A stretch of 45,992 nt of DNA from a virus, in IMG/VR virus record IMGVR_UViG_3300046558_000413, positions 1 through 45,992 of that record, one strand, 5' to 3'. The position numbers were made by a program, and so were the translations under genes. Shown in pieces: positions 2,248 through 43,073 of the stretch. The notes beneath the pieces are model-generated. The model was given only the letters and a program-made list of their open reading frames with translations. It had not been told where the DNA came from and searched no databases. Numbering within the stretch: position 1 is the stretch's first letter; each line of letters opens with the position of its first letter.

Positions 2248-2517
2248 TTAGGCTGCTCTCCCCATCAGTTTGTTCTGTTCTCTGGTTGCTTTTTCTCGCT
2301 GTCGATCAATGTAGTCGGCAAGGTCTTTCAGGTAAATTCCCAGAGCCGCTTTTTGGCTATCTGCGCCAAGGCGAACAACGGGGATATCAATCTCCCCATC
2401 CAGTCGCTTGCGTTTGAATTTTTCGACGGTTAAGTGCATATAGTCTGTGCACACCCGATCAAGTGGGATGACAGCTTGGCCATCGTACTGAGCCATGAGT
2501 AAAAACAACGTGTTCAT
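2248..2517 (-). CDS. Pyocin activator PrtN family protein (copy 1)
   Basis: An 89-aa protein of the PrtN family. The N-terminal two thirds carry the usual pattern: a short hydrophobic start (NTLFLLMAQY), VIPLDRVCTDYMHLT, a basic KFKRKRLDG turn, then IPVVRL and a YLKDLADYID helix. PrtN of P. aeruginosa activates pyocin genes by binding upstream P-boxes. Phage-borne relatives sit in early operons and may act as activators or excisionase-like factors; which applies here is not visible. Last gene of the leftward early operon, its ATG overlapping the stop of the PAPS-reductase-like gene by 4 nt, so translation is coupled. A second, diverged family member lies in the same operon at 4392-4709. Confidence 0.85.
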   Translation of the reverse strand: MNTLFLLMAQYDGQAVIPLDRVCTDYMHLTVEKFKRKRLDGEIDIPVVRLGADSQKAALGIYLKDLADYIDRQREKATREQNKLMGRAA

Positions 2518-3506
2518 GCTGCCTCCGTCATATCGAGTGGCTCCAAACTGTTATCACAAAGTCCGTATGCACTTGCGCAGGCTTTATCATCAGTAGTGAT
2601 CATAAGATCGTACTGAATTCCGCCTCGGGCTGTCTTCGACCACTCGACGGCCTGGCGAATGCTGGCTATCTCCATCACTTCGATAGCGGTCATGCCCGCG
2701 ATTGAACCTTTGGGGTGTTTAGCGTTGGAGCCTGCAAAGAAGGTGGCAGCGCCGCATTTACTGGCCTGCTGCACCGTGCGTTCCCAACGGTCAATTCGGT
2801 CGACTACCTCGGGGAACCGCACAGCAATCTGGCGTAATTCGTCCTTGCGGCAGTTGATGCACGGCATGCAGCCGACACGGCCCATGCCTTGGGAATACAG
2901 AGGGTTCGGCTTGATACCCATGTACCTATGTGCCTCGAACACGGCCGGGATATCCCATTTCAAGATCGGCCGGTAGTTGAATAAGCCGCCGCCAACCTCG
3001 TCGCATTCCGGTAGATAGCGTCGGTTTAGCGACTCATCCGCCCGAACGCCCTGCCAGCTGATTAGCATGTCCCCTTTGTCCATCATCGGCATGATGACTT
3101 GCTCAAGCATGGGGTCGCGTTTTAGCTCCATGGTGCAGAATTGGGCCTTACGGCTGGGGAATCGGCCCTTCCAAATGCATAGGTCTAGGAACGGGTTACC
3201 TGTAGGTACCAGCACGTCCAGCGCGGCCAGTACGACGGACTCAGCAATGCCCTGCTCACGCCATTTTGTTTCGATGAACAGTCGCTTACCTGCGATCTGC
3301 CGGGAAAAGTTAGCTTTGACCTTGGTAATCGTTACGCCCGTTGCTTGTTCGAGGTAGTCCAGGTACTGATACGTCTGGTCATGTTCGTTGCCGGTGTCAG
3401 CAAAGACGGCTTTCAGGTTCTGGGCTTCCAAGGCTATGGCAACAAGCAGGGTTGCGGTGCTGTCTTTGCCGCCGGATACGCTGATGATGTTATGGGTGTT
3501 CATCAC
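2514..3506 (-). CDS. Phosphoadenosine phosphosulfate reductase family protein
   Basis: A 330-aa PP-loop protein of the PAPS reductase/ATP-pyrophosphatase superfamily. The nucleotide-binding loop SGGKDS is at residues 11-16. Cys124 together with Cys213, Cys216 and Cys219 (the last three in GCMPCINC) could hold an iron-sulfur cluster, as in DndC-type members of the superfamily. Phages often carry such proteins. Proposed roles are sulfur metabolism or sulfur-based nucleic-acid modification, but nothing here fixes the substrate. It overlaps both neighbours by 4 nt (PrtN-like gene downstream, 125-aa unknown upstream) in the leftward early operon. No dnd-like partners are nearby, so a complete phosphorothioation system is not supported. 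Confidence 0.82.
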   Translation of the reverse strand: MMNTHNIISVSGGKDSTATLLVAIALEAQNLKAVFADTGNEHDQTYQYLDYLEQATGVTITKVKANFSRQIAGKRLFIETKWREQGIAESVVLAALDVLVPTGNPFLDLCIWKGRFPSRKAQFCTMELKRDPMLEQVIMPMMDKGDMLISWQGVRADESLNRRYLPECDEVGGGLFNYRPILKWDIPAVFEAHRYMGIKPNPLYSQGMGRVGCMPCINCRKDELRQIAVRFPEVVDRIDRWERTVQQASKCGAATFFAGSNAKHPKGSIAGMTAIEVMEIASIRQAVEWSKTARGGIQYDLMITTDDKACASAYGLCDNSLEPLDMTEAA

Positions 3507-6008: not shown

Positions 6009-7436
6009 CTACAGGCCTAGCTTGCTTTCGATATAGGTTTGGAGGATGCCGACACCGAGATCTGTTGCGTGCGAGCCGAGCCCGAGCAGAAATTTCTTGA
6101 TTTTTTGTTTCGCTCCGAGCCTTTCTGGATCAGGTATACCGGGATCGGCTAGCTCATGGACTGCTGATTCCAGACTCGCTTTCGACTTACCACCAAACTG
6201 GCTAATCAGTTCGATGATTTTGAGGTCTTCAGTGCCGAGATATTGATTGCCGCGAATCTCTTGGGAAATTGCAATATTTGCAATATTTATTATTTGATTG
6301 CTTACGTTTGGTGGCGGGGCGATGTTGAAGCTGCTTTGAAGTCCCGTAGGCGTAGTGGTAATAAAAGAAGATATCGGGCTGCTGTTCAGTACTGAGGGGA
6401 TTATTGTGTTGACTATATTTTCAATGAAAAGCTTTTCACTGGAATTTTGAGTTATATCTGCCAGTTCGGACTCCATGCGATGTCTGAGGGAAAGCAGTTT
6501 TATTTCACTTTCGTGCTTTATGTCTAGTTGAAGTCGTTTCGATTCTTTAGCGAATTTTGTAATGATGGATGTTGCTTCATTTGGATTTATTTCAGAGTTG
6601 CGCAGTAGTTCTTCCGCTGCGGCAATATCGGTGCTGCATAAGTCCATTAAAGAGGAGAAGTCTTTAAACTTATCCTGCATGCTGCTATCAGAATGCTCTT
6701 CTTCGCCGTGAAATTCGTATACTGTTCCGTTGTCAGTCGTTCGCTGATCAAGCCGTGTTTTTATCTTTGATACGCGACCTAAGTAGTCTTTGAACAGCTG
6801 AAGCAACTTTTCAGTTTGTTCTGACCAAATACGGCCATTAGGTATGTACATCCGAAATATCAGGTTTTTCTCTGTCTCTACTAGAAAATGTTCAGATAGA
6901 ACATTCATTTCTGCCGTTCGGCTGAAAGGTGTAATGTCTATCTCCATCTCTTCTAGCCAATCCAGTACCGTTCGAGCGACAATTTTCGGTAAGCGAGAGT
7001 TAACCATATTTACGTTTGAGATGTTGACTCTGTTGAGTGTGTGCTCGTCGATGAAAACAATATGTCGTACTTTCGATATTCGGGAAAATAATTCTTGTTT
7101 AACCGAGTCGTAACGTTGGTCGTATAGGTTATGGAATGCGTTGTTGCTGATTTTTATCAAAACTGAATTTATTTCAAATAAATCGAAGTACTGAATGATC
7201 GACTCCCAGTTCTCCGGAGTTGACTCTAGAAGCTTTTTTTTGTATTGGCGTTTTGTGGTTGTTAGAAGGTTAAGTGCGCCTTCACCTCCAACTCTTCCAA
7301 GAAGTAGAACTAGCGGTTTTTCTGGGTTGAGCGAAAACTCTTGATAGTTATAATCGTCAAAAGGTGGTTCGTCTGGATAAAGGCCCGAAACCACTTCATC
7401 CTCTTCAAAGTCGAAGTTCAGATCGTTTTCGTCCAT
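6009..7436 (-). CDS. Unknown 475-aa protein co-transcribed with the prophage repressor
   Basis: No recognised domain. The N-terminus is very acidic (many Asp and Glu in the first 40 residues). Residues about 40-190 look alpha/beta, with LVLLLGRVGGEGALNLL reminiscent of, but not matching, a P-loop. Residues about 270-330 are helical and charged. The C-terminal 80 residues include a helix pair and LGLGSHATDLGVGILQTYI. Base composition is lower in GC than the flanking phage genes. A TTG start at 7463, immediately after the repressor stop, is possible (484 aa), but the ATG at 7436 has GAAGGGA upstream and is preferred. Being directly behind the repressor on the same strand, it should be made in the lysogen. 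That suggests superinfection exclusion, defence or lysogenic conversion, but this is inference only. Confidence 0.72.
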   Translation of the reverse strand: MDENDLNFDFEEDEVVSGLYPDEPPFDDYNYQEFSLNPEKPLVLLLGRVGGEGALNLLTTTKRQYKKKLLESTPENWESIIQYFDLFEINSVLIKISNNAFHNLYDQRYDSVKQELFSRISKVRHIVFIDEHTLNRVNISNVNMVNSRLPKIVARTVLDWLEEMEIDITPFSRTAEMNVLSEHFLVETEKNLIFRMYIPNGRIWSEQTEKLLQLFKDYLGRVSKIKTRLDQRTTDNGTVYEFHGEEEHSDSSMQDKFKDFSSLMDLCSTDIAAAEELLRNSEINPNEATSIITKFAKESKRLQLDIKHESEIKLLSLRHRMESELADITQNSSEKLFIENIVNTIIPSVLNSSPISSFITTTPTGLQSSFNIAPPPNVSNQIINIANIAISQEIRGNQYLGTEDLKIIELISQFGGKSKASLESAVHELADPGIPDPERLGAKQKIKKFLLGLGSHATDLGVGILQTYIESKLGL

Positions 7437-7463
7437 TGAGTCAATATTCCCTTCTTTGGTCAA

Positions 7464-26646: not shown

Positions 26647-27813
26647 ATGAGTTTTTTCCACGGCGTCACGACCACGTCGGTCGACACTGGTGCGCGCACC
26701 ATCTCGCTGCCGTCTTCGTCGATCATCGGTCTGTGTGCCACCTTCACCCCGGGCGTTCTCGGCGGCGGCACGGCGAAAGCCGGCGAACTGAAGTTAATCA
26801 CCACCGAGCGCGAAGCCATTGCCGCCTTCGGCGCCGATTCGGCAATCACCAAGGCGTGTAAGGCGATCTACGTCAAAGCCAAGGCGGTGATCGTCGCCAT
26901 CGGCGTACCCAAGCTGGAAGACGCGGCGCTGCAAACCTCGGCGATCATTGGCGGTGAACTGGTCTCGGGTCAGCGTACCGGCCTGCAGGCGCTGCTCGAC
27001 GGTAAAAGCCTGTTCAATGCTCAGCCGCGGTTGTTGATCGCCCCGGGCCACACCGCGACTCAGGCGGTGGCTACGGCCATCGACAGCGTGGCGCAGAAGC
27101 TGCGCGCCATCGGCATCATCGACGGTCCTGGTACGACCGACGAGGCCGCTATTGCCTACGCCGAGAACTTCGGCAGTCGCAACCTGTTCATGGTCGACCC
27201 GGGCGTCAAGTATTGGGACACCGGCACCAGTTCGACGGTCGACGCTCCCGGCTCGGCTTGGGCAGCAGGCCTGTTTGCCTGGACGGATGCTGAATACGGT
27301 TTCTGGGCCTCGCCATCGAACAAGGAATTGACCGGCATCACCGGCACCGGCCGCGCGGTCGAGTACCTGGACGGCGACGAGACGTGCCGGGCCAACCTGC
27401 TCAACAACGCCAATATCACCACCATCATTCGCGATGACGGTTATCGCCTGTGGGGCAACCGCACGCTGTCGAGCGATCCGAAGTGGGCCTTCGTTACCCG
27501 CGTTCGCACGCTGTTCATCCTCATGGATGCGGTGCAGGCGGGGCACAAGTGGGCGGTCGACCGTTCGATCACCAAGACCTACGTGACCGATGTCACCAAC
27601 GGTCTGGATGCGTTCATGCGTGACCTGAAAGCTCAGGGCGCAATCATCAACTTTGAAGTGTTCGCCGACACCGAACTGAACACGGCCAGCCAGATCGCCG
27701 AGGGCAAGGTGTATTGGCGCATCCGTTTCACCGACGTGCCGCCGGCAGAGAACCCGAATTTCCTTTTCGAAGTCACCGATCAGTGGATGACCGAAGTGCT
27801 TGAAGCAGCCTAA
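26647..27813 (+). CDS. Tail sheath protein
   Basis: 388 aa, P2 FI-type sheath. Diagnostic: FFHGVTTTSVDTGARTISLPSSSIIGL at the start, LLIAPGHTATQAVATAIDSVAQKLRAIGIIDGP, YDAD-region variants, NLLNNANITTIIRDDGYRLWGNRTLSSDPKWAFVTRVRTLFILMDAVQ and a C-terminal ITFTDVPPAENP-like stretch (RFTDVPPAENPNFLFEVTDQW). It makes the contractile sheath, proving a myovirus-type tail. Confidence 0.95.
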   Translation: MSFFHGVTTTSVDTGARTISLPSSSIIGLCATFTPGVLGGGTAKAGELKLITTEREAIAAFGADSAITKACKAIYVKAKAVIVAIGVPKLEDAALQTSAIIGGELVSGQRTGLQALLDGKSLFNAQPRLLIAPGHTATQAVATAIDSVAQKLRAIGIIDGPGTTDEAAIAYAENFGSRNLFMVDPGVKYWDTGTSSTVDAPGSAWAAGLFAWTDAEYGFWASPSNKELTGITGTGRAVEYLDGDETCRANLLNNANITTIIRDDGYRLWGNRTLSSDPKWAFVTRVRTLFILMDAVQAGHKWAVDRSITKTYVTDVTNGLDAFMRDLKAQGAIINFEVFADTELNTASQIAEGKVYWRIRFTDVPPAENPNFLFEVTDQWMTEVLEAA

Positions 27814-27826
27814 GGGGGCGTAACCA

Positions 27827-28330
27827 ATGATTCCTCAGACTTTGTACAACACCAACCTGTTCGTCGACGGCGTCAATTTTGCCGGCGAAGTGCCGAGCAT
27901 GACGCTGCCCAAGCTGACCACCAAGACTGACGAGTATCGCGGGGGCGGCATGGCCGGCCCTGTCGATATGGATCAGGGGCTGGAAAAAATGGAAGCATCC
28001 TTTGTCACGAAGGGCGTGCGCCGTGAGTCGCTGAAGCATTTCGGTCTGGCCGATGGCACGGCGTTCAATGCCACGTTCCGTGGCGCCTTCAAGGGGCTGA
28101 AGGGCGCCGTTACGGCGGTGGTCGCCACTTTGCGCGGCCGGCTCAAAGAGGTCGACATGGGCGACTGGAAAGCCGGCGACGCCGCCGAGATCAAACACGC
28201 TATCGCGGTCACCTACTACAAGCTCGAAATCGACGGGCGCCTGATGTACGAGATCGACATGGTCGCCGGCATCCAGGTGATCGACGGCAAAGACCAACTG
28301 CTCGAAGTGCGCAACGCGCTCGGCCTGTAA
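27827..28330 (+). CDS. Major tail tube protein
   Basis: 167 aa of the P2 FII family: IPQTLYNTNLFVDGVNFAGEVPSMTLPKLTTKTDEYRGGGMAGPVDMDQGLEKMEASF, then YYKLEIDGRLMYEIDMVAGIQVIDGKDQLLEVRNALGL. Stacked hexamers form the inner tube within the sheath. 13 nt after the sheath gene. Confidence 0.95.
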   Translation: MIPQTLYNTNLFVDGVNFAGEVPSMTLPKLTTKTDEYRGGGMAGPVDMDQGLEKMEASFVTKGVRRESLKHFGLADGTAFNATFRGAFKGLKGAVTAVVATLRGRLKEVDMGDWKAGDAAEIKHAIAVTYYKLEIDGRLMYEIDMVAGIQVIDGKDQLLEVRNALGL

Positions 28331-28343
28331 GGAATAGATCCAG

Positions 28344-28943
28344 ATGACTCAAGTAATCGCTAAAAACCTGCCGGCCTGGCTGTCGCTCAGTGCAATCGGT
28401 GCCGTCGTAACCCTGACCCGCCCAAGCCAAGCCAATAGCGTCGACGTCGAGACGTTGAACCTGCGTAACCCGACCGTGCGTGAAGTGCGTGCGGCCGATC
28501 GTGCTGCCAACGGCGATGATGAGCAGCGCGAACTGATGCTGTTCGCCGGTCTCGCCGAAGTCGGACTGAAGGATCTGGAAGGCCTCAAGCTGACGGATTA
28601 TCGCCGCGTGCAAACGGCGTATTCGCACCTGGTACCGAAAACCGATTATTCGGACTCGATGCCGGCGTGGTTGTCGCTGACCACCGATCAGGTGCTGGTG
28701 ACGCTGTCGTGTCCGAGTGAAATCAATGGCGTGACCGTCGACAAGCTGGCCTTGCGTTCGCCGACCGTGGGCGACGTGCGGGCGGCCAACCGGAAAGTGG
28801 GTGGCGATGATGAGCAGCGCGAGCTGGTGTTGTTTGCTGCATTGTCCGGTGCGAGTGTGGCGGATCTGGAGGGGCTGAAGCTGGTGGATTTTAACCGCTT
28901 GCAGGCCGGCTATTTTCGCATGGACAACGACGACGGGCTTTAA
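28344..28943 (+). CDS. Tail assembly chaperone gpE, internally duplicated
   Basis: 199 aa, about twice the usual gpE length. Two related halves: residues about 9-97 and 104-193 both read PAWLSL...VTL..PS..N.V.V..L.LR.PTV..VRAA.R...GDDEQREL.LFA.L....V.DLEGLKL.D..R.Q. In P2 and relatives gpE and its frameshifted product E+E' act as chaperones on the tape measure. The frame ends at TAA 28941-28943, preceded by GGG CTT and followed by C, with the E' frame open across it (next feature). It lies between tube and tape measure as expected. Confidence 0.85.
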   Translation: MTQVIAKNLPAWLSLSAIGAVVTLTRPSQANSVDVETLNLRNPTVREVRAADRAANGDDEQRELMLFAGLAEVGLKDLEGLKLTDYRRVQTAYSHLVPKTDYSDSMPAWLSLTTDQVLVTLSCPSEINGVTVDKLALRSPTVGDVRAANRKVGGDDEQRELVLFAALSGASVADLEGLKLVDFNRLQAGYFRMDNDDGL

Positions 28944-29055
28944 CCCCAGCGTTATCAAGTCGGCGGCGAAACGTCTGGCGGCGGAAACCGGATTTTCCGC
29001 CGCTGAGATCCAGTCGATGCCGTTCGCGGATATGGTGTGGTGGCTCACGGATTGA
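28942..29055 (+). CDS. gpE' extension, reached by probable translational frameshift
   Basis: A 37-codon segment in the +1 frame relative to gpE: NPSVIKSAAKRLAAETGF... ending MPFADMVWWLTD. The motif M-x-(F/L)-x-(D/E)-(M/L)-x-x-W resembles P2 gpE'. The +1 frame is open only from 28879, so the shift must occur between there and the gpE stop. CTT TAA C at 28938-28944 has the same arrangement as the RF2 (prfB) +1 site CTT TGA C. A fused product would be 236 aa. There is no good independent start. A -2 shift elsewhere in the window 28879-28940 is the alternative. Confidence 0.7.
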   Translation, partial: NPSVIKSAAKRLAAETGFSAAEIQSMPFADMVWWLTD

Positions 29056-29093: not shown

Positions 29094-31775
29094 ATGGCAA
29101 ACAAAATCGCCCTCGGGCTGGTGATCGGCGGCGCCGTCAGTTCGACGGTCGGCGCCGCGTTCAAGGATGTGACCGGGCGCATCAAGCGCCTCGAGGCAGA
29201 AGGCAACAAAGCGCGTGTGCTGCAGCGCACGATTGGCGACACCATCCGCCTGCGCGAAGAATGGAAGAAGGCTCACGACACCGGCGCGGCCGGTGCGTCC
29301 AAATTACTCAACCGTTTGAACTCGAACCTCGACAGCTTGAAAAAGCAGGGGATCGAGGTCGGTCGACTGGAAAAAGCCTATCGCTCGATGGGGCAGACGG
29401 CCAACAAAGCCGAGCTGAAAGCCAAGGGTCATCAGCAGATTGATTCTGGCGTAAAGGGCATGAAGGGCGCTGTCGGTGCTGCGGTTGTGGGTGTCGGTGC
29501 CATGGCGGTGCCGGCCAAGGTCAGCGCTGATTTTGGCGCCATTGTCCGTGACATCGCGATCAAGGCCGGCATTGCCAACAAGCCGCAAGAGCAGGAGATG
29601 TCGCGCAAGATCATCGACACGTCACGCGATACCGGCATGGCGCGCAACGATGTGGCCGACGTGGTCAATCAGTTGGTCGGCGCCGGTATGGACTTGAGCA
29701 AGGCGCTGGAATACGCGCCTGTCGCGGCCAAGTTTGTCGTGGGGCAGGGATCCAGCGGCGTCGACACGGCGAAGATGATCAACGCCCTAGGGCAGAACGC
29801 CAAGATCACCGACCCCAAGCAGATGCAGCAGGCGCTGGAAGCGATCGCCTACCAAGGTCAGGCGGGCAGCTTTGAAGCGGCTGACATGGCCAAGTGGTTC
29901 CCGGAACTGCTGGCCAACATGGCCAGCAACGGCATCACCGGCTTGGATGCGGTGACCCAACTGGGTGCCATGCTGCAGGTGCAGATGAAACAGGCCGGCA
30001 GTTCGGACGAAGCGGCCAACAACCTGAAAAACTGGATGGGCAAAATCGGCTCGACCGACACGGTCAAGGCCTACGAAAAAGCCGGTATTGATTACAAGGG
30101 GTCGATGCAGACTGGTTTGCAAAACGGCATGTCGACGCTCGAAACCAGTATGGCGCTGGCTCAGAAATACATTCAGGCGACCGATCCGAAGCGTGCGGCG
30201 GCCATGGCCGAAGCCACGTCAAAAATCAGCAAGGAAGCCGACCCGGAGAAGGCCAAGGCCATGATGGCCTCGCTGGAAGAATCCCTGCGCACCGGCGACC
30301 TGTTCGCCGACATGCAGGTCAAGGCCGCACTGTCGGCCTACATGCAGAACAAGGCGCTGTACAGCCAGCTCAAAAACGATTCGCGTGACGCGACCGGGAT
30401 CCTCGACAAGAACCTCGCCGAGCGGCGCGAGTCGTCATCGCAGAAATGGGCGGAAATGGCCCAGTCGATGGATGACGCCATGCGCAGCATCGGTGATGCG
30501 CTGCGCCCGGTGACGGACACCGTGGCCGAGTCGTTGACCAAGGTTACTAAAGGCATTACGTCGCTGACTGATAGCGCGCCCGGGGTAGTTGCCGGTATCG
30601 CCACGGTCGGGGCGGGGCTGATCGCCTTGAAGGTTATCTTCAGCACGATCAAGATCGGCAAGGGGCTGCTAAACCTTGCGCGTGGGTCGCGCGGTGGCAG
30701 TAATGGGAGCGAAGCCCCAAATAAAAACCCCGGAGAACTTGATCTGGTAGCGACTGGCCTGGATGTTGTTTCACGGGTGAAAGACGCGGCAACAGGCGGT
30801 GGCCTTGGTACTGAAAATGGTGCAGGTAACGACGGCGTCAAGAAGGTTTTCGTCGTCAATGCCGGCGCTATGGGGGGCGGTGTGGATGCGTCGGGCGAAT
30901 CGCGCCGACGTGGACGTGGGTCAAGGCGCAGCGCTCGGCGCCGGTCGTTGCCGAGTTCGAGAGGTCCTCGCCCATCTGTGCCTCGTCCACCTGTTCCGGT
31001 TTCACGTCCATCTGTTCCGGTTTCACGGCCACCCGTTCCGGCTTCGCGTCCCCCTGTTTCGATCCCGTCGCCATCAGTCCCTTCCGTTCCAAGTGGGGCA
31101 TTGTCCAAGCTTGGCGTCGTCGTAGAAACCGTCGGTAAGGTCAGCAAGGCGGCCAAGGTCATTCCTGGCGGCACGCTGCTGGAGTCCGGCGCGATGGCGC
31201 TTGAAACCTTTCAAAACGCCAAGACCAAGGACGAAAAAGCCGAAGGTTACGGTTCGGCTGCCGGCAACCTGGCCGGCACCATGGCCGGTGCAGCAGCAGG
31301 CGCCGCCATTGGTTCGGTTGTGCCGATCATCGGCACCGCGATCGGCGGCATGATCGGTGCTTACCTGGGCAGTCAGGGCGGTGCGGCGCTGGGCGGGTCG
31401 TTGGGTAAGTCGCTGTTCGGCGGTGAGGATGAAAAGCCCGAGCAAACGGCAAAGGCGCCGGTGCCGACCACGCCGCTCATGATGGCGTCAGCGGGCCAGC
31501 AAGGCCCGGTGCTGGGGGATGTCGCGCGCTCGATGGCGGTGACCGCGCCGCTCAAGTCGGCGGCGATGGCCATCCAGCCCAAGGAGGCGGCGAAGCCGGA
31601 GCCGGCCAAGGTGGATCAGCAGTTTCAGTATTCACTGAACATGCCGGTGACCGTGCAGGGCGATGTCAAAGACCCGCAAACCTTGGCGCAGGATCTGATG
31701 CCGCACATGCAGCGAATGATGGCGGACGCGGCGAGGAGTAACGCCGCCAAGCTGTACGACGAACCCCATGTCTAA
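29094..31775 (+). CDS. Tail tape measure protein
   Basis: 893 aa, TP901-type. N-terminal helical region (KDVTGRIKRLEAEGNKARVLQRTIGDTIRLREEW), a core with DIAIKAGIANKPQEQEMSRKIIDTSRDTGMARNDVADVVNQLVGAGMD, hydrophobic segments near 495-525 (VVAGIATVGAGLIALKVIFS) and 720-765 (Gly/Ala-rich AGTMAGAAAGAAIGSVVPIIG). Residues about 595-665 are a Pro/Arg/Ser-rich low-complexity insert including four 7-aa repeats of the type RPPVPVS encoded by 21-nt units at 30984-31067. The tape length sets tail length. Confidence 0.93.
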   Translation: MANKIALGLVIGGAVSSTVGAAFKDVTGRIKRLEAEGNKARVLQRTIGDTIRLREEWKKAHDTGAAGASKLLNRLNSNLDSLKKQGIEVGRLEKAYRSMGQTANKAELKAKGHQQIDSGVKGMKGAVGAAVVGVGAMAVPAKVSADFGAIVRDIAIKAGIANKPQEQEMSRKIIDTSRDTGMARNDVADVVNQLVGAGMDLSKALEYAPVAAKFVVGQGSSGVDTAKMINALGQNAKITDPKQMQQALEAIAYQGQAGSFEAADMAKWFPELLANMASNGITGLDAVTQLGAMLQVQMKQAGSSDEAANNLKNWMGKIGSTDTVKAYEKAGIDYKGSMQTGLQNGMSTLETSMALAQKYIQATDPKRAAAMAEATSKISKEADPEKAKAMMASLEESLRTGDLFADMQVKAALSAYMQNKALYSQLKNDSRDATGILDKNLAERRESSSQKWAEMAQSMDDAMRSIGDALRPVTDTVAESLTKVTKGITSLTDSAPGVVAGIATVGAGLIALKVIFSTIKIGKGLLNLARGSRGGSNGSEAPNKNPGELDLVATGLDVVSRVKDAATGGGLGTENGAGNDGVKKVFVVNAGAMGGGVDASGESRRRGRGSRRSARRRSLPSSRGPRPSVPRPPVPVSRPSVPVSRPPVPASRPPVSIPSPSVPSVPSGALSKLGVVVETVGKVSKAAKVIPGGTLLESGAMALETFQNAKTKDEKAEGYGSAAGNLAGTMAGAAAGAAIGSVVPIIGTAIGGMIGAYLGSQGGAALGGSLGKSLFGGEDEKPEQTAKAPVPTTPLMMASAGQQGPVLGDVARSMAVTAPLKSAAMAIQPKEAAKPEPAKVDQQFQYSLNMPVTVQGDVKDPQTLAQDLMPHMQRMMADAARSNAAKLYDEPHV
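30984..31067 (+). repeat. Four 21-bp tandem repeats inside the tape measure gene
   Basis: Units start at 30984, 31005, 31026 and 31047. The first two differ at one base (CGTCCA C/T CTGTTCCGG...), the others are diverged. Each codes seven residues, RP(P/S)VP(V/A)S-like. In-frame copy change would alter tape measure length by 7 aa per unit. Confidence 0.8.
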
Positions 31776-31784
31776 GGAGGTTTC

Positions 31785-32630
31785 ATGGCTTACATGGAGC
31801 AGATGCAATCAAGTCTGAAGTATCTGGTGGATGCAGCGGAAACCGGGCGGCGTAGCGCGGATGGCATGCTGTCCCCGGTCAATGGCGCGATCCGCGAACT
31901 GACCGGCGCCGCGTCCGAGCTGGAAAACATCCCGTTCGTCGGGCCGGCCATCGGCGCCAAGCTTCAGCGGGTGATGCGCGGCGTCGACGCGGCTCAGGCC
32001 AAGGTCGGTCAGGTGGCGGCGGTGTACGGCCGCGCCACCCGGGCGGCGGCCGAAGTGCAGGAGCGGCTGGGCACATTGAAGGAACAGGCGGGCAAGGCGG
32101 CCACGGCGATCAACAACGTTGCCGGCAAGGTCAGTCCGTCGCTGGCCAACATCGTGCCCACCAGTTCCTTTGCCGTGGAGGCCACGCCAGCGCCGGAGGC
32201 GGTGAAGCCGTTCCCGCATCTGATGATCATTCAGCCGCGCGACCCGAAGATTGAGCCGTATTACTTCAACCTGGACACCGCAGCTTTCGACGAGCTAAGC
32301 CGTTCGACCGAATTCCGCTGGGCTTCGCAGGAGCGGCTGACGCGCCGCCCGGCGAAGCAGGCCATCGGTATGGGCGATGAAAAGTTGACGCTCAAGGGCA
32401 CGATCTATCCGGGCTTCAAAGGCGGTTTAAAGCAGCTCGACACGCTGCGTTCCATCGGGGCCAGGCTGCAACCGCTGACCCTGACCATGGGTTATGGCGA
32501 GGTGATCGGGACGTGGTGCTTGAAGACTATCAACGATGAACGGGGCGCGTTTTTGCACGGCGGGATTGCCCGCAAACAGGGTTTTACTTTGGAGTTTGAG
32601 CGTTATGGCGACGATATGCAGGACGTCTGA
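31785..32630 (+). CDS. Tail protein gpU with long N-terminal extension
   Basis: 281 aa. The C-terminal part (about 143-281) matches P2 gpU: HLMIIQPRDPKIEPYYFN..FDELSRSTEFRWASQERLTRRPA..LTLKGTIYPGFKGGLKQLDTLRSIG..YGEVIGTWCLKTINDERGAF..FTLEFERYGDD. P2 gpU has only about 159 residues; the extra N-terminal 140 residues are Ala-rich amphipathic helix (DAAETGRRSADGMLSPVNGAIREL, AAVYGRATRAAAEVQERLG), likely coiled coil. AAGGAGG precedes the ATG. It is coupled to gpX by a 26-nt overlap. Confidence 0.85.
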   Translation: MAYMEQMQSSLKYLVDAAETGRRSADGMLSPVNGAIRELTGAASELENIPFVGPAIGAKLQRVMRGVDAAQAKVGQVAAVYGRATRAAAEVQERLGTLKEQAGKAATAINNVAGKVSPSLANIVPTSSFAVEATPAPEAVKPFPHLMIIQPRDPKIEPYYFNLDTAAFDELSRSTEFRWASQERLTRRPAKQAIGMGDEKLTLKGTIYPGFKGGLKQLDTLRSIGARLQPLTLTMGYGEVIGTWCLKTINDERGAFLHGGIARKQGFTLEFERYGDDMQDV

Positions 32631-36484: not shown

Positions 36485-36910
36485 ATGAGTTACTCAATTC
36501 TAGGTCCCATCAGTGAGGGCGGTTCGAAGGTGCCGCTATGTCTCTTCCGAGTCCCGGCCGGCTTTCCCTCGCCGGCTGCGGATCACATTGAAGCGCAGAT
36601 ATCGCTAGATGAGGTGCTGAACATTCGTGCGCCACACGTCTACCTGGTGTCACTCGCTGGTGAAAGCATGCAGGGCGCGGGGATCTATGAGGGAGACTTG
36701 GCCATAGTCGATCGATCAATTGAGCCCGCCCACGGCCACATCGTCATTGCGCTGTTGAACAATGAGCCCGTATGCAAGCGCCTATGCCTTCGCGGTAGGG
36801 AGGTCATCCTGATGTCGGAAAACCCCAAGTACCCGCCACGGTACGTCCTTGAGGGTGACGAGCTGTCGATTTGGGGGGTGATCACCAGCAGCGTGCGCAG
36901 CCATGTCTAA
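36485..36910 (+). CDS. umuD: UmuD-like protein, S24 peptidase
   Basis: 141 aa, normal for UmuD. Self-cleavage pair Ala25-Gly26 before FPSPAADH, nucleophile Ser61 in GESMQGAGI and base Lys98 in VCKRL. After RecA-stimulated cleavage UmuD' would join UmuC as DNA polymerase V. Controlled by the SOS box at 36451. The stop overlaps the umuC start by 8 nt. Confidence 0.93.
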   Translation: MSYSILGPISEGGSKVPLCLFRVPAGFPSPAADHIEAQISLDEVLNIRAPHVYLVSLAGESMQGAGIYEGDLAIVDRSIEPAHGHIVIALLNNEPVCKRLCLRGREVILMSENPKYPPRYVLEGDELSIWGVITSSVRSHV

Positions 36911-38180
36911 CGAGCGGCCGGTATTCGGCCTGATCGATTGCAACAGCTTCTATGCCAGCTGCGAGCGCGTGTTTCGCCCTGACCTCGCCAAGGTGCCTAT
37001 CGTGGTGCTGTCGAACAACGACGGCTGCGTCATTGCCCGCAGCTACGACGCAAAGCCCTACGTGAAAATGGGCGAGCCGTACTTCCAGATCAAGCACAAA
37101 CTCAAGCAGCATGGCATCGTCCCGTTTTCCTCGAACTATGCGCTTTACGGTGACATGAGTGAGCGTGTCATGACACTGATCGAGTCGATGGTACCCGCCG
37201 TTGAGGTCTACAGCATCGACGAAGCCTTCGTCGACCTCACCGGCATTAATGACCTGGACTCGCTCGGCCGCAAGATCCGCAGCCAAGTGCTGCGCTGCAC
37301 GGGCATCCCGGTCGGTGTCGGCATCGCGCATACCAAGACCCTAGCCAAGCTGGCCAACCACACCGCCAAACGCTTGCAGGCGCAAACCGGTGGCGTTGTG
37401 AACATCTGCGACCCAATCAAGCGCGACTGGGTGCTGCGTAATACGGACGTAGCGGAGGTGTGGGGAGTAGGCCGGCGCATGAAAATGCACTTGGATGGCA
37501 TGGGGATCAAGACCGCAATGGATCTGGCCAAGGCCGACCCGTGGACGTTGAGAAAAAACTTCAGCGTGGTGATCGAGAAAACTGCCCGGGAATTGGCCGG
37601 CACGCCGTGCCTGGAGCTGGATGAGCCGGATCCGCCAAAGCAGGAGATCTGCTGCAGCCGGATGTTCGGTAAAAGGCTGAAGGAGCTGACCCCAATCAAG
37701 GAAGCGGTGGCGACTTACATGATGCGGGCATCGGAAAAGCTCCGGGCACAAAATTCGCTGTGCAAGAAGATTCGGGTCAGCATCCGCACCGGAATGTTCA
37801 ACCCCGATGAGGCTAAATATGCGAATGGTGTCGTGGTGGATCTGCCTTACCCAACTGATGACGTTCGGCTTTTGACCACTGCAGCCGTCAATGCACTAGA
37901 TCGTGTATTTCGTCCTGATTTCAGTTACAGCAAAGCGGAAGTCATCCTACTGAATCTATGCCAACCAGGTGAATACACAGACGATCTGTTCGCCACTTCT
38001 CAGCCTACTGAGGCGACGAGAGTGATGGCGGTGCTGGACGAAATCAATGGCCGGTGGGGGAGGGGGACGCTCCGGGCTGCGAGTGTGCCGAGCAATCCAG
38101 ATTGGGGCATGCGACGGGAAATGATGAGCCAAAGCTATACCACGCGCTTGGACCAGTTGTGGACAGTTAACTGTCGATAA
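36903..38180 (+). CDS. umuC: UmuC-like Y-family DNA polymerase
   Basis: 425 aa, full length. N-terminal FGLIDCNSFYASCERVFRPDL holds the first catalytic Asp, YSIDEAFVDLTGI the DE pair, then VGVGIAHTKTLAKLANHTAK. The C-terminal part includes SYTTRLDQLWTV, usual for UmuC. It performs error-prone translesion synthesis with UmuD'. Being on the phage side of the tRNA-Ser end at 38254, the pair appears to be carried by the prophage near its right end; it could also be an older insertion next to it. Confidence 0.93.
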   Translation: MSNERPVFGLIDCNSFYASCERVFRPDLAKVPIVVLSNNDGCVIARSYDAKPYVKMGEPYFQIKHKLKQHGIVPFSSNYALYGDMSERVMTLIESMVPAVEVYSIDEAFVDLTGINDLDSLGRKIRSQVLRCTGIPVGVGIAHTKTLAKLANHTAKRLQAQTGGVVNICDPIKRDWVLRNTDVAEVWGVGRRMKMHLDGMGIKTAMDLAKADPWTLRKNFSVVIEKTARELAGTPCLELDEPDPPKQEICCSRMFGKRLKELTPIKEAVATYMMRASEKLRAQNSLCKKIRVSIRTGMFNPDEAKYANGVVVDLPYPTDDVRLLTTAAVNALDRVFRPDFSYSKAEVILLNLCQPGEYTDDLFATSQPTEATRVMAVLDEINGRWGRGTLRAASVPSNPDWGMRREMMSQSYTTRLDQLWTVNCR

Positions 38181-38976: not shown

Positions 38977-41121
38977 ATGGATCATGACACGCTAGTAAAC
39001 CATATACGCGGATTGAGCAAAGTTCTTTTTGATGCGGCCTGCCATATAGTGCTTAAAGAATACTTTAGAATTAACGCCATCAATGTTGATGGTTCAAATG
39101 ACGGAGGCGCAGATTTTATACGCGTGGGTAGCGATGGAGCGCGAAGCGATGCCATTTACCAGATCACTACACAAAAAGAAAAAATCCCCGAAAAGCTTGG
39201 GAACGATATTGGAAAAGCAATTGAAAAACTTTCCGCCAAGAGATTTTATTTTTTTACTACGTTAAATATTAGTGAAACCGTATCTCGAAAATACGAGTTA
39301 AAATACTCACAGGAATTAGAGATACCTGTTTCATTTTTTAGCGCAAGACATGTTGCGGAGTTCCTGCTCGATGGAAATCTTTTAAATCGTTTCTTGGATG
39401 CAGTAAACTACCCTCTTCCTAGGTCATTCGATGGGACGGCTGACTACAAAGAAATGGCGCTTCACAGCTATACTATAATGTCTGATGACGCAAAAGTCAT
39501 GCGAGATGGAGTATACGACGACACAATCCTCTTCGTCTTATCTGATAGCGGAGAGCTTGAGCAAGGCGAGTTGGTTGCGCGGGTTTTGGAATTTCTTAAC
39601 ATAAAGTCCGACAAGGAAGAGTATCTAAAAAACCGCATTGGTGCTTTGTTTTCCAAACAATCTATTCAACGCGCTGAGTCGGGCGCCGTCGCTCTATCCT
39701 CAGGCTCGATGCAAGATATTCAATCACGGAAAAGGATATACGAACAAGAACTAAGTGATCTTGCAGCCGTACAGATTGACATCATGCGAAAAGATTTCAA
39801 AGTCGACTGGAGTATCGCCGAGTCAAAAGAAATTAGCATTTATATCGCCGACGCTTACATTGGTCAACAAATGGAACTCTTAGACGATATAAAAGCCAAA
39901 ATCTCCGTTGAACCTATTCTGAACCAGCGTGATCGCGATCAAAATACTATACGAGACTATATCCGCGACAGATCTGGCCTATCCAAAGGAAGAGCGGCCA
40001 ATGCCGCCACGGCACTATTACACAGTGCATCAAATCATCCGCTTATCATAAAATTAGCTAGAGCATCTGTATATGTGGCTCTTGAGGGGCGAAGTGCAGT
40101 AGCTTCAGCAAAAGCTCTTGGTGCAAGCAGATGGAGCGATTTTAATATATTAATCGAGCCGTCGGTAGCAATCCACTGGATATGTTCTCGCTTGTATGAT
40201 GGTGATGTAAACGGCTTTTTCAGTATCAGCAAAAAGTCAGTAGAGCGATCAATTAGCTTAAGCGCATCTGCATTTATACCGTACTTTTACATCAACGAAT
40301 GCGCATCACATCTATTGTGGGCAAGAAAATACTCTTCATTGGAGGATGTTGCTACCCCAGAAGAACTTCAATATTCAAGAAATGCATTCATCGCAAACTA
40401 TTATGCGCTAAAAGCTCAGGGCGTTAGGGTCCCTAATACGATACTTGAATATCTAAAAACCTTTAGCTCTGCTGTTCTAATTGAGCGTTCTAGCAGGAAG
40501 GATTGGGTCCGAGCAGTCATGATCGATATCCAGTCAATACTTAGCAAGTCAGGGGTTCAGTTTATTGAAGTGCCATTTTATAAACCCGAGGATTGTGTCA
40601 GCTTTGAACGTGAGTACACGCACTATCTAACTTCGCGTAACCAATCAAAATCCCGGCACCTTATGGATCACGACGTGTGGGCATTGCAATTCACGCACAA
40701 TGAAGTCATAAACGAAAATAAGCATTGGGCGGTCTTGACATTTGATAATGCCATGGTAAGGGTCGCCGCAGGCGCCAGCCATGCAGGATGGGTTGTGACC
40801 CCATATAAATTCCTTGATATTACGGCATCATCTCAGTCGTTGTCAGACACTCAATATGTGTCTCTCGTTCACAGTTTGGCCGTATCAAGTGCAAAAACAC
40901 TCTCTGTTGCGGCGAGAATAATTGATAGGGTGGTGAGCTATGCGTCCGATCAGTTGCAGAACTGGGAGTTCAAAAATGACTTTGAGAATTTCAAGAAAAA
41001 TTTGATATCCGAGCTTGATGATAATGATACCCCCGGCGAAGATGAAGAGTTGGAGGTAAACGCCAAGGTCGACGAGTTCTTGCTTGCTAAAGGGATCGAT
41101 ATTTCGAAAGATGAAGAATGA
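38977..41121 (+). CDS. Unknown 714-aa protein, possible nuclease/PIN-like defence effector
   Basis: Three parts. Residues 1-110: helical start, then NVDGSNDGGADFIRV and a strand IYQITTQKEK, a D-x16-Q-x-T arrangement (Asp46, Gln62, Thr64) like restriction-endonuclease-fold domains, though the usual E-x-K is absent. Residues 120-480: mostly helical, with a disrupted winged-helix-like stretch around 180-245, no family recognised. Residues about 555-630: MDHDVWALQF ... WAVLTFDNAM ... GWVVTPYKFLDI, which resembles a PIN domain (acidic cluster, then LTFD). The last 30 residues are acidic. Lower GC than the host. It lies alone, bracketed by 24-bp inverted repeats and followed by a strong terminator. 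A solitary anti-phage effector is plausible but unproven. Confidence 0.6.
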   Translation: MDHDTLVNHIRGLSKVLFDAACHIVLKEYFRINAINVDGSNDGGADFIRVGSDGARSDAIYQITTQKEKIPEKLGNDIGKAIEKLSAKRFYFFTTLNISETVSRKYELKYSQELEIPVSFFSARHVAEFLLDGNLLNRFLDAVNYPLPRSFDGTADYKEMALHSYTIMSDDAKVMRDGVYDDTILFVLSDSGELEQGELVARVLEFLNIKSDKEEYLKNRIGALFSKQSIQRAESGAVALSSGSMQDIQSRKRIYEQELSDLAAVQIDIMRKDFKVDWSIAESKEISIYIADAYIGQQMELLDDIKAKISVEPILNQRDRDQNTIRDYIRDRSGLSKGRAANAATALLHSASNHPLIIKLARASVYVALEGRSAVASAKALGASRWSDFNILIEPSVAIHWICSRLYDGDVNGFFSISKKSVERSISLSASAFIPYFYINECASHLLWARKYSSLEDVATPEELQYSRNAFIANYYALKAQGVRVPNTILEYLKTFSSAVLIERSSRKDWVRAVMIDIQSILSKSGVQFIEVPFYKPEDCVSFEREYTHYLTSRNQSKSRHLMDHDVWALQFTHNEVINENKHWAVLTFDNAMVRVAAGASHAGWVVTPYKFLDITASSQSLSDTQYVSLVHSLAVSSAKTLSVAARIIDRVVSYASDQLQNWEFKNDFENFKKNLISELDDNDTPGEDEELEVNAKVDEFLLAKGIDISKDEE

Positions 41122-41648: not shown

Positions 41649-43073
41649 CTAGGGCCGCGTTATCAGGTATCTGCCCTCAATAGTGAACCCACAAGAGCGA
41701 ACTGAGCGGCGGAGCGACAGAACGATTTTGAGTTGCTCATCCAGTACTAGAGCTTCTGACTGAATTGTCAGCGGCCATGGCTTGTGTCCCAAGCTCTCGA
41801 AGAACCCCCCTAAAAACTTCGCTAAGGTCTCGTCCGATAGCTTCTGATGGAACAGTGCGTTGGATAGCTGGACAGTGACTTCGAACTCGTCCGCAATCGC
41901 TTGCACAAGCCGGACACGCGTTACCCGCGCTTTCAATTTGGCGAGTTGTTCGCGGTCTATACAAGTGTTTATTGAGATAGGAGTAGGGTGGAATTCTCGC
42001 GAGTGTTCGCCATCTTCCAGCGTCATCGCCAGAAACGCTACAGCCTCCCAGCCTTCATCAAGCTTATCGATGATTGCAGCGTAAGCATCAAACGACTTTC
42101 GATCTTCTGGTTTAGGCATAATGTCGCGATGGGCGGTGAGCTCGCTAAAGCAAACCTCAAATGACCCGTTGGAGGGCCTGACCTTGAATCTCCAGTTCAA
42201 GGAGTGTGCTTTGGATATCGTATGCACCACCGTTATGGATTTTTCTCGTCGCTCGTACTCTACGTCACTGCCAGTAGTTACGAGGATGAAAGCATGCGTA
42301 TTCAAACGGTCTTTCATGATGGAGCCGTCTTTTGGGTTGCGCGCGCTGAACTGAACACCGGTAGCCGCATGCCCTATGCTGGTCATGGGAGGTTGTGGTT
42401 CTCGGTAAGTCTCGAACTGTGCATCCCATGAGGCAACCACATCGCGCCAGAGCTGGTCGCTCGCACCCGAATGACGAAGCTCGGTGGTGATGATTTCACG
42501 GATAGTCTGACTTAATCGCGGAGTGAGCGCAGCCTCGAATGGTGGTGTTGGTAGGTCTAGTTCTGTGATAGACAGTGCATTCTCGATTTTCCGATAGAGA
42601 GCATTTACCTCGGTTTTAATCTTGTCTTTATCTAAGTCCGGCATGTGCGCCCGAACAATTTCATCCACGCGCTGGACCCCTACCCTGGCTGTCAGATATC
42701 CGAAAGTTGGCGATTCAATCGTTAATCCGTGCGTGAAGACTCGGACACGTTTCATTGCCAATAGCTGCTCAGGGGGATAATTGAATTGAAATTGATCTAC
42801 CTGCACCGCGTGTGTCGGGCACAGCCACACACCGTTAGTTTCGGCTGCCTTTTCCTCATCAGATAACTCTTGGCCGGGCCTCGGCCCATTTGGTGACGCA
42901 GCATAGATATGAGCTGCGACACCGGCTCCTTTCAATACAATCGTTCCGTTTTCCAGAACGGCTGGGCCCGTGGAGGGATAAAGGCATTCGGGAAACGAGC
43001 ACATGTGACCGGCCGTACCGGCAAGGATGTTACGTGTCTTCTTGGAGAAGTTGACTCTGCGTGATACTGACAT
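41649..43073 (-). CDS. HNH-domain protein, possible defence effector
   Basis: 474 aa. The N-terminal 95 residues form an HNH-type zinc-bound nuclease centre: Cys25 and Cys30 (CSFPEC), His55 in VAAHIYAASPNGPRP, Asn80-Gly, Cys85 and His88 in NGVWLCPTHAVQVD. The AHI...NG(I/V)WLC..H signature is shared by a group of HNH proteins often found in defence contexts. Residues 100-474 are not recognised and would be the sensor or specificity part. The terminus faces the 714-aa gene convergently. There is no strong ribosome site at the ATG (AACGG only). Confidence 0.68.
   Translation of the reverse strand: MSVSRRVNFSKKTRNILAGTAGHMCSFPECLYPSTGPAVLENGTIVLKGAGVAAHIYAASPNGPRPGQELSDEEKAAETNGVWLCPTHAVQVDQFQFNYPPEQLLAMKRVRVFTHGLTIESPTFGYLTARVGVQRVDEIVRAHMPDLDKDKIKTEVNALYRKIENALSITELDLPTPPFEAALTPRLSQTIREIITTELRHSGASDQLWRDVVASWDAQFETYREPQPPMTSIGHAATGVQFSARNPKDGSIMKDRLNTHAFILVTTGSDVEYERREKSITVVHTISKAHSLNWRFKVRPSNGSFEVCFSELTAHRDIMPKPEDRKSFDAYAAIIDKLDEGWEAVAFLAMTLEDGEHSREFHPTPISINTCIDREQLAKLKARVTRVRLVQAIADEFEVTVQLSNALFHQKLSDETLAKFLGGFFESLGHKPWPLTIQSEALVLDEQLKIVLSLRRSVRSCGFTIEGRYLITRP

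Follow-up and report, generated by a model that had tools for sequence, protein, structure and literature searches.

Which event joins gpE, the tail assembly chaperone gene of a P2-type tail module, to the overlapping frame E' in the virus record IMGVR_UViG_3300046558_000413 (positions 1 to 45,992), and where in gpE would it take place? The whole of this 45,992-base stretch of DNA is called the window here. In P2 and its relatives, according to earlier work, the two frames are linked by a -1 shift at T6G or a similar sequence (PMC3091744, PMC3931495); the window departs from that pattern, in that E' lies in the +1 frame and the run is just TTT C. A preliminary description of this DNA proposed instead an RF2-style +1 frameshift at CTT TAA C, the end of gpE. 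The comparison of relatives presented below supports the direction of that shift and moves its site, pointing to an in-frame TTT_C as the main slip point with a probability of about 0.8.

The gpE-E' locus

The window contains a lambda-type terminase (GpA) alongside P2-type contractile-tail genes, and a gpE domain of the Phage_TAC_7 family is situated between the tube and tape measure genes (PF10109, PF04985, PF10145). The features used in the analysis are as follows.

26647-27813: sheath FI, a P2-type contractile-tail gene
27827..28330, + strand: tail tube protein FII, upstream neighbour of gpE (PF04985, E=1.5e-59)
28344..28943, + strand: gpE, tail assembly chaperone of 199 aa with two tandem Phage_TAC_7 domains (ORF; PF10109, E=1.2e-39, two stretches)
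28344..28655, + strand: first gpE copy, with TAT TCG CAC at the equivalent of the slip site and without TTT C (sequence; paralogue comparison)
28656..28943, + strand: second gpE copy, bearer of the candidate slip site (alignment)
28879..29055, + strand: +1 frame, full open interval (TGA at 29053-29055)
28914..28917, + strand: proposed +1 slip site TTT_C, in the context TAT TTT CGC (28911-28919)
28918..29055, + strand: E' as it would be read after the shift, 45 codons (AWTTTTGFNPSVIK...WWLTD) and TGA (fusion translation with TTTC taken as one step; E'-frame third-position pattern of changes downstream)
28938..28944, + strand: CTT TAA C including the gpE stop, the site of the preliminary description
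29094..31775, + strand: tape measure protein, downstream neighbour (PF10145, E=9.5e-25)
31785-32630: gpU, a P2-type contractile-tail gene

The anatomy given in the preliminary description was reproduced. The gpE frame does end in GGG CTT TAA C (GAC GAC GGG CTT TAA CCC, ending at 28943), the open stretch of the +1 frame starts at 28879 and runs to its TGA, and skipping one base yields on translation a gpE-E' fusion of the 236 aa predicted; the likening of CTT TAA C to the prfB core also agrees with the pattern of CUU or YUU, a stop and C. The E' frame is likewise open across the in-frame TTT C at 28914-28917. It encodes ...FAWTTTTGFNPSVIKSAAKRLAAETGFSAAEIQSMPFADMVWWLTD, a sequence that can be aligned by eye to E' from further phages of the P2 type (LSPEYIRSGVLALASHTGWSLAEI...WWLEG), and no ATG, GTG or TTG occurs in it ahead of the E' domain. 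A Pfam scan of the E' frame alone gave a best E of 0.27, and PHROG returned a weak match only (phrog_10636, E=0.0044).

Some other features of the window were recorded in passing. The C-terminal half of the tape measure protein (29094-31775) contains a proline-rich repeat, PSVPRPPVPVSRPSVPVSRPPVPASRPPV, an uncommon feature in a helical ruler. At 36485-38180, downstream of the lysis genes, lie UmuD-like (Peptidase_S24) and UmuC-like (IMS) genes, in either phage or host flank, and a PAPS-reductase-like protein (PF01507) is encoded at 2514-3506 (-), near the integrase end of the element. Three long ORFs, at 6009-7463 (-), 38977-41121 (+) and 41649-43073 (-), have no Pfam match at E 0.001; the start of the last one contains cysteines and histidines and could, by eye, be an HNH-like region.

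Frame of E' among relatives

Relatives of gpE were collected from viral contigs (80 loci, and 80 more that largely overlap with them), from one genome per species (30 loci) and from named phages. In addition, 398 Pseudomonas genomes were searched, of which 116 had a match, and 100 regions beyond the loci already returned were fetched among the matches listed, with only the second half taken where the gene is duplicated. The profile and peptide searches were run at the protein level, and thus carry no bias to TTT over TTC, although one of the patterns contained YFR. The frame of E' was then scored with gpE and E' profiles in 332 rows.

E' could be placed in 329 of these rows, the other three being too short to judge. 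It lies in +1 in 324 rows and in +2, which equals -1, in five, all of them distant named phages: Persinger (a Pseudomonas phage), Mica, KA2-1, ep3 and Murka. With so uniform a frame among the rows that could be placed, the gpE/E' arrangement is not due to chance, and the part of the preliminary description that called for a shift into +1, unusual for an E/E' pair, stands. Judged from these sequences, E' is very probably made as a +1 fusion with gpE. In three annotated records with a +1 E', neither E' nor the fusion is among the listed genes (the plasmid gene tables are incomplete).

Because the locus sets from viral contigs overlap, the 324 rows correspond to 206 distinct regions. Leaving out the three truncated rows, the five rows in frame +2 and near-duplicates (92% identity over 90% length) gave 86 representatives, and the 79 gap-free ones among them, with a mean pairwise nucleotide identity of 66% over the stretch concerned, were used for the tree analysis. 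Since the counts are drawn from related sequences, changes counted on the tree are preferred here to Fisher values.

The search was also extended to the order and class. A class-wide genome search found a match in three of 369 genomes, one of which is the centre genome, and the order- and class-wide search together gave a gpE match at 30 of 30 loci, with both strands read (including L333, L369 and L370). Five of the 30 are close relatives with a +1 E' (L333, L355 and L334-L336), where L333 and L355 are a single locus already counted as L280. At the 25 distant loci, E' lies in +2 in 24, of which 14 were called by profile at iE 0.011 or better and 10 only weakly or by eye, and in +1 in one (L352). 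Many of the distant +2 loci have T-runs, such as GAT TTT TTG and GGT TTT TTA. E' is also in +2 in Wolbachia phage WOcauB1, AcaML1, Arya, KL3 and Mano, and inspection by eye found no E'-like stretch in either frame of E. coli phage 569R10. With 24 of the 25 distant loci and these named phages in +2, the Pseudomonas group differs in direction from most P2-like relatives.

An invariant TTT_C in gpE

An in-frame TTT with C directly after it is present in all 86 representatives, and in each of them the +1 frame runs through it without a stop. In 324 of 324 rows, the 22 codons that precede the E' match contain exactly one such in-frame TTT with C. The next codon makes the site TTT CG[CT] in 82 of 86 (CGC in the window) and TTT CTG in four. 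On the tree of 79 sequences none of the three bases of TTT changed (0, 0 and 0). By comparison, the mean for third positions in codons -45 to -1 is 19.4 changes, and another Phe codon, at -27, shows 19. Phe is otherwise written TTT 49 times and TTC 86 times in the gpE open frame. In four representatives the Phe stands one codon further 3' (TAC ACC TTT CTG versus TAT TTT CGC CTG) and TTT_C is still retained, showing that the motif is kept while the protein changes. The second gpE copy of two-domain proteins can be compared with the first in this respect: at the equivalent of TTT, the first copy reads TCG (166), ACG (15), TCT (2), TCC (2) or TCA (1), and an in-frame TTT C near the equivalent place is absent from the first copy in 186 of 186 two-domain rows. 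A slip in the first copy would truncate the protein. Two gpE domains were seen within the fetched DNA in at least 13 of the 86 representatives, many fetched regions beginning inside the gene, and also in L105-L107.

The codon before TTT varies among the representatives (TAT, TAC, ACC, ACG, AAC and CGC). Where it encodes Tyr, TAT is used in 64 of 82 YFR-type representatives, versus 49 of 161 Tyr codons elsewhere, a preference that agrees with weak E-site pairing aiding +1 shifts; for RF2, PMC3498833 links such pairing to a higher level of +1 shifting. The TGG that follows the site in the E' frame is invariant too (79 of 79, versus 76% per sequence expected from codon usage) and is broken in some first gpE copies, and it is only moderately informative.

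The same site recurs outside the counted set. L334-L336 (TAC TTT CGC), L366 (TAT TTT CGT) and L367 (TAT TTT CGC) keep both TTT_C and a +1 E', and among them only L367 has an NTT directly before the gpE stop; L366 and L367 resemble counted sequences. The distant L352, from the order-level search, reads AAA TTT TTT CGT CAT TAA with an E'-like stretch in +1 by a weak profile match (iE 0.027), and is possibly an independent or older case of the site. Among the 86, an 18.5-kb P. aeruginosa record (L082, OQ658366) has TAC TTT CGC and lacks NTT before the stop; its gene content is, in our reading, R-pyocin-like, and it is the one locus among L082 and L334-L336 whose host is known. The P. aeruginosa-type gpE of these four loci extends 14 codons beyond the point where gpE usually ends, and the junction itself has no stop codon.

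TTT with C was also found at the equivalent place of two loci whose E' is in -1, namely L349 (GGT TTT CGC) and L363, Achromobacter phage Mano (GGT TTT CTC). TTT_C alone therefore does not set the direction of the shift, and a T_TTT_C, which would permit either direction, may be a stepping stone between -1 and +1. The -1 E' of Persinger, itself a Pseudomonas phage, also speaks against the present reading.

The NTT-stop site and other explanations

CTT TAA C lies 24 nt downstream of TTT C. If it were the slip point, ribosomes would pause at the gpE stop and the P-site tRNA would slip from CUU to UUU, with MDNDDGLNPSVIK as the predicted junction. Several observations fit such a site: NTT directly precedes a stop (TAA, TGA or TAG) in 66 of the 86 representatives, the kind of stop varying while a stop stays; the single-copy relatives L108-L117 have the prfB core, CTT TGA followed by C (7/10) or T (3/10); and the E'-frame Phe codon responsible for the stop is spelled TTT 61 times out of 66, compared with 86 of 156 in the rest of E', so that the gpE stop appears to be under some selection. 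The preliminary description had looked to conservation of CTT-stop-C in homologues; NTT followed by a stop is there in the 66 and missing from the remaining 20, all of which have a +1 E'. Eight of the 20 have CTG or GTG before TAA, five terminate two or three codons short of this position, and in seven gpE extends by another 5 to 14 codons, with contexts such as CTT CAA and CTG TAA in which a slip at the stop is impossible. The NTT-stop trait changed state at least 7 times on the tree of 79; the first base of its P-site codon changed 18 times, giving mainly Leu, Val, Ile and Phe, and the three stop-codon bases 5, 11 and 8 times. Meanwhile, there is no excess of Shine-Dalgarno (SD) pairing upstream of it (mean pairing energy -2.87, versus -3.13 in control stretches of gpE). 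We rejected it as the main slip point on account of its absence from 20 of 86, and consider a shift of purely RF2 style quite unlikely. A combined use, with UUU_C as primary site and NTT-stop as a second chance wherever both exist, would accommodate the 66 representatives that have both as well as the enriched stop-making TTT, but the NTT-stop state changes repeatedly on the tree and TTT never does, which makes this version unlikely as well.

The enrichment of NTT-stop suggests selection for ending gpE at this place, or a minor second site. An E' frame that reads TTT AAC or TTT GAC (Phe-Asn or Phe-Asp) gives rise to CTT TAA C by itself; in the window the motif is probably in the main a by-product of the E'-frame Phe-Asn (TTT AAC) and of selection for ending gpE, and possibly an auxiliary slip site. 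The codons between the two sites did not discriminate between them by dual coding on the tree of 79: third positions of codons 1-7 changed 12, 0, 10, 23, 16, 6 and 12 times, a pattern in which the 0 frame (gpE) dominates, so dual coding is weak there, and chance alone would leave the +1 frame open across these codons in 93% of sequences.

A Mu-like -2 shift at the same TTT, giving YFFAW and the predicted junction LQAGYFFAWTTTTGFNPSVIK, would reach the same frame, and -2 shifting is known in Mu (PMC5009743). Against it, the variable codon ahead of TTT does not preserve the pairing that would be needed after a move back by two bases, whereas the C that follows TTT is invariant; this shift was rejected, as the preceding codon is not kept among the 86 representatives, and we regard it as most improbable. 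It is also very unlikely that E' is made separately from a start codon in its own frame, or is not made at all. An ATG, GTG or TTG does occur in the E' frame near the junction in 35 of 86 representatives, and the E' of L082 and L334-L336 has internal ATGs. No such start exists in the other 51 of 86, which excludes it as a general rule, nor ahead of the E' domain in the window; moreover, changes within E' are biased to third positions of its own frame, and TTT_C is kept even where ATGs exist. Slippage of RNA polymerase was set aside as well, as we infer from a T-run of only three or four. Among these explanations, a +1 slip at UUU_C is the one that we prefer.

RNA structure and codon context

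Stimulatory signals were sought as well. The preliminary description had called the internal SD weak, and rightly so: the stretches ahead of the two candidate sites pair with the anti-SD about as well as other parts of gpE do, and an SD-like stimulator was rejected. So was a conserved stimulatory stem-loop, with mean z of -0.08, -0.61 and -0.99 in three downstream segments (40 of the 79 sequences). RNAalifold on all 79 sequences found no consensus helix up to +80 and just four weak pairs up to +130. The segment from +30 to +110 folds somewhat better than its shuffles (mean z -0.99; 11 of 40 below -2; -2.16 in the window itself), and there may be unconserved structure in it. CGC is a common, not a rare, codon in Pseudomonas. 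Taken together, a codon that is not rare and the lack of a conserved stem-loop or SD excess count against slippage at UUU_C, since they provide no evident stimulus for it.

Comparison with known frameshift systems

The locus shares with P2 E/E+E' the gene order (FI, FII, E, E', T), the family Phage_TAC_7 and an E' without its own start, and its junction falls at almost the same place of gpE (after LQxAYxxF / LQAGYF, by eye). By analogy, gpE-E' would work like P2 E+E' and lambda G/GT (PMC5009743).

The proposed site itself has its closest counterparts in viruses of other hosts. In influenza A PA-X and the plant amalgaviruses, as proposed here, UUU is followed by C, tRNA-Phe moves from UUU to UUC, and CGN mostly occupies the A site (PMC5052127, PMC3498833); the present case differs in its bacterial host, in an A-site codon that can be CTG, and in that CGC is not rare. 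UUU_CGN is named as a +1 motif of plant amalgaviruses and PA-X in PMC5052127. The tail assembly chaperone genes of the HF1-group haloviruses are alike in site and gene role, with a +1 frame and TTT CGC. For these, +1 shifting at TTT-CGC has been proposed, without experiment (PMC7230728). In contrast to our locus, they are archaeal viruses, TTT is a rare codon there, and AGA TAG directly follows in HF2, which reads AAG TTT CGC AGA TAG with the +1 frame open across it.

As to RF2 (prfB), CTT TAA C of the window fits the consensus YTT_TRA_C (PMC3711429), but an excess of internal SD pairing is lacking, and relatives can do without the motif. Other phage tail-related genes use the +1 frame as here, with different sites and proteins: PMC5009743 gives a +1 shift at CCC_UGA for tsh of Listeria phages PSA, A118 and A500, and a -2 shift for Mu gpGT. 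Reviews likewise cite +1 shifting for halovirus HSTV-2 and for genes of Listeria phages (PMC5009743, PMC8211752). In the open-licence literature, judged mostly from listings, UUU_C did not turn up as a reported feature of R-pyocins or of tail genes in bacterial phages. The case in hand is a probable tail-chaperone frameshift in +1 instead of -1, at an invariant UUU_C.

Proposed mechanism and implications

We suggest that a minority of ribosomes, having decoded Phe-191 (UUU), would slip one base forward, with the P-site tRNA-Phe (anticodon GAA) re-pairing from UUU to the overlapping UUC at UUU_C, mostly UUU_CGN. According to PMC3498833, UUC is a better match than UUU for the single tRNA-Phe. 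Reading would go on as GCA UGG into E', and the product would be the 236-aa gpE-E', whose first 191 residues are common to gpE, with LQAGYFAWTTTTGFNPSVIK as the predicted junction peptide. That the shift occurs, how efficient it is and the tRNA step are matters we infer from sequence. In analogy to P2 E+E' and lambda G/GT, gpE, the P2-type tail assembly chaperone, may cover the tape measure protein, while the E' tail may recruit tube subunits.

A wider reading, to which we lean with some reserve, is that UUU_C(GN) works as a +1 signal on bacterial ribosomes without a stop, a rare codon, an internal SD or a conserved RNA structure; that Pseudomonas phages and R-pyocin-like elements exchanged the -1 T-run for it without a change of chaperone gene or of place within that gene; and that one motif is common to RNA viruses of eukaryotes, tailed viruses of archaea and bacterial tails. 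The +1 E' with its invariant UUU_C spans a broad set of Pseudomonas elements, including the R-pyocin-like record. If confirmed, the locus would offer a compact bacterial model in which to dissect the UUU_CGN signal of influenza and plant viruses, and would provide a rule for adding the gpE-E' protein to annotations of Pseudomonas phages and tailocins, where it is missing.
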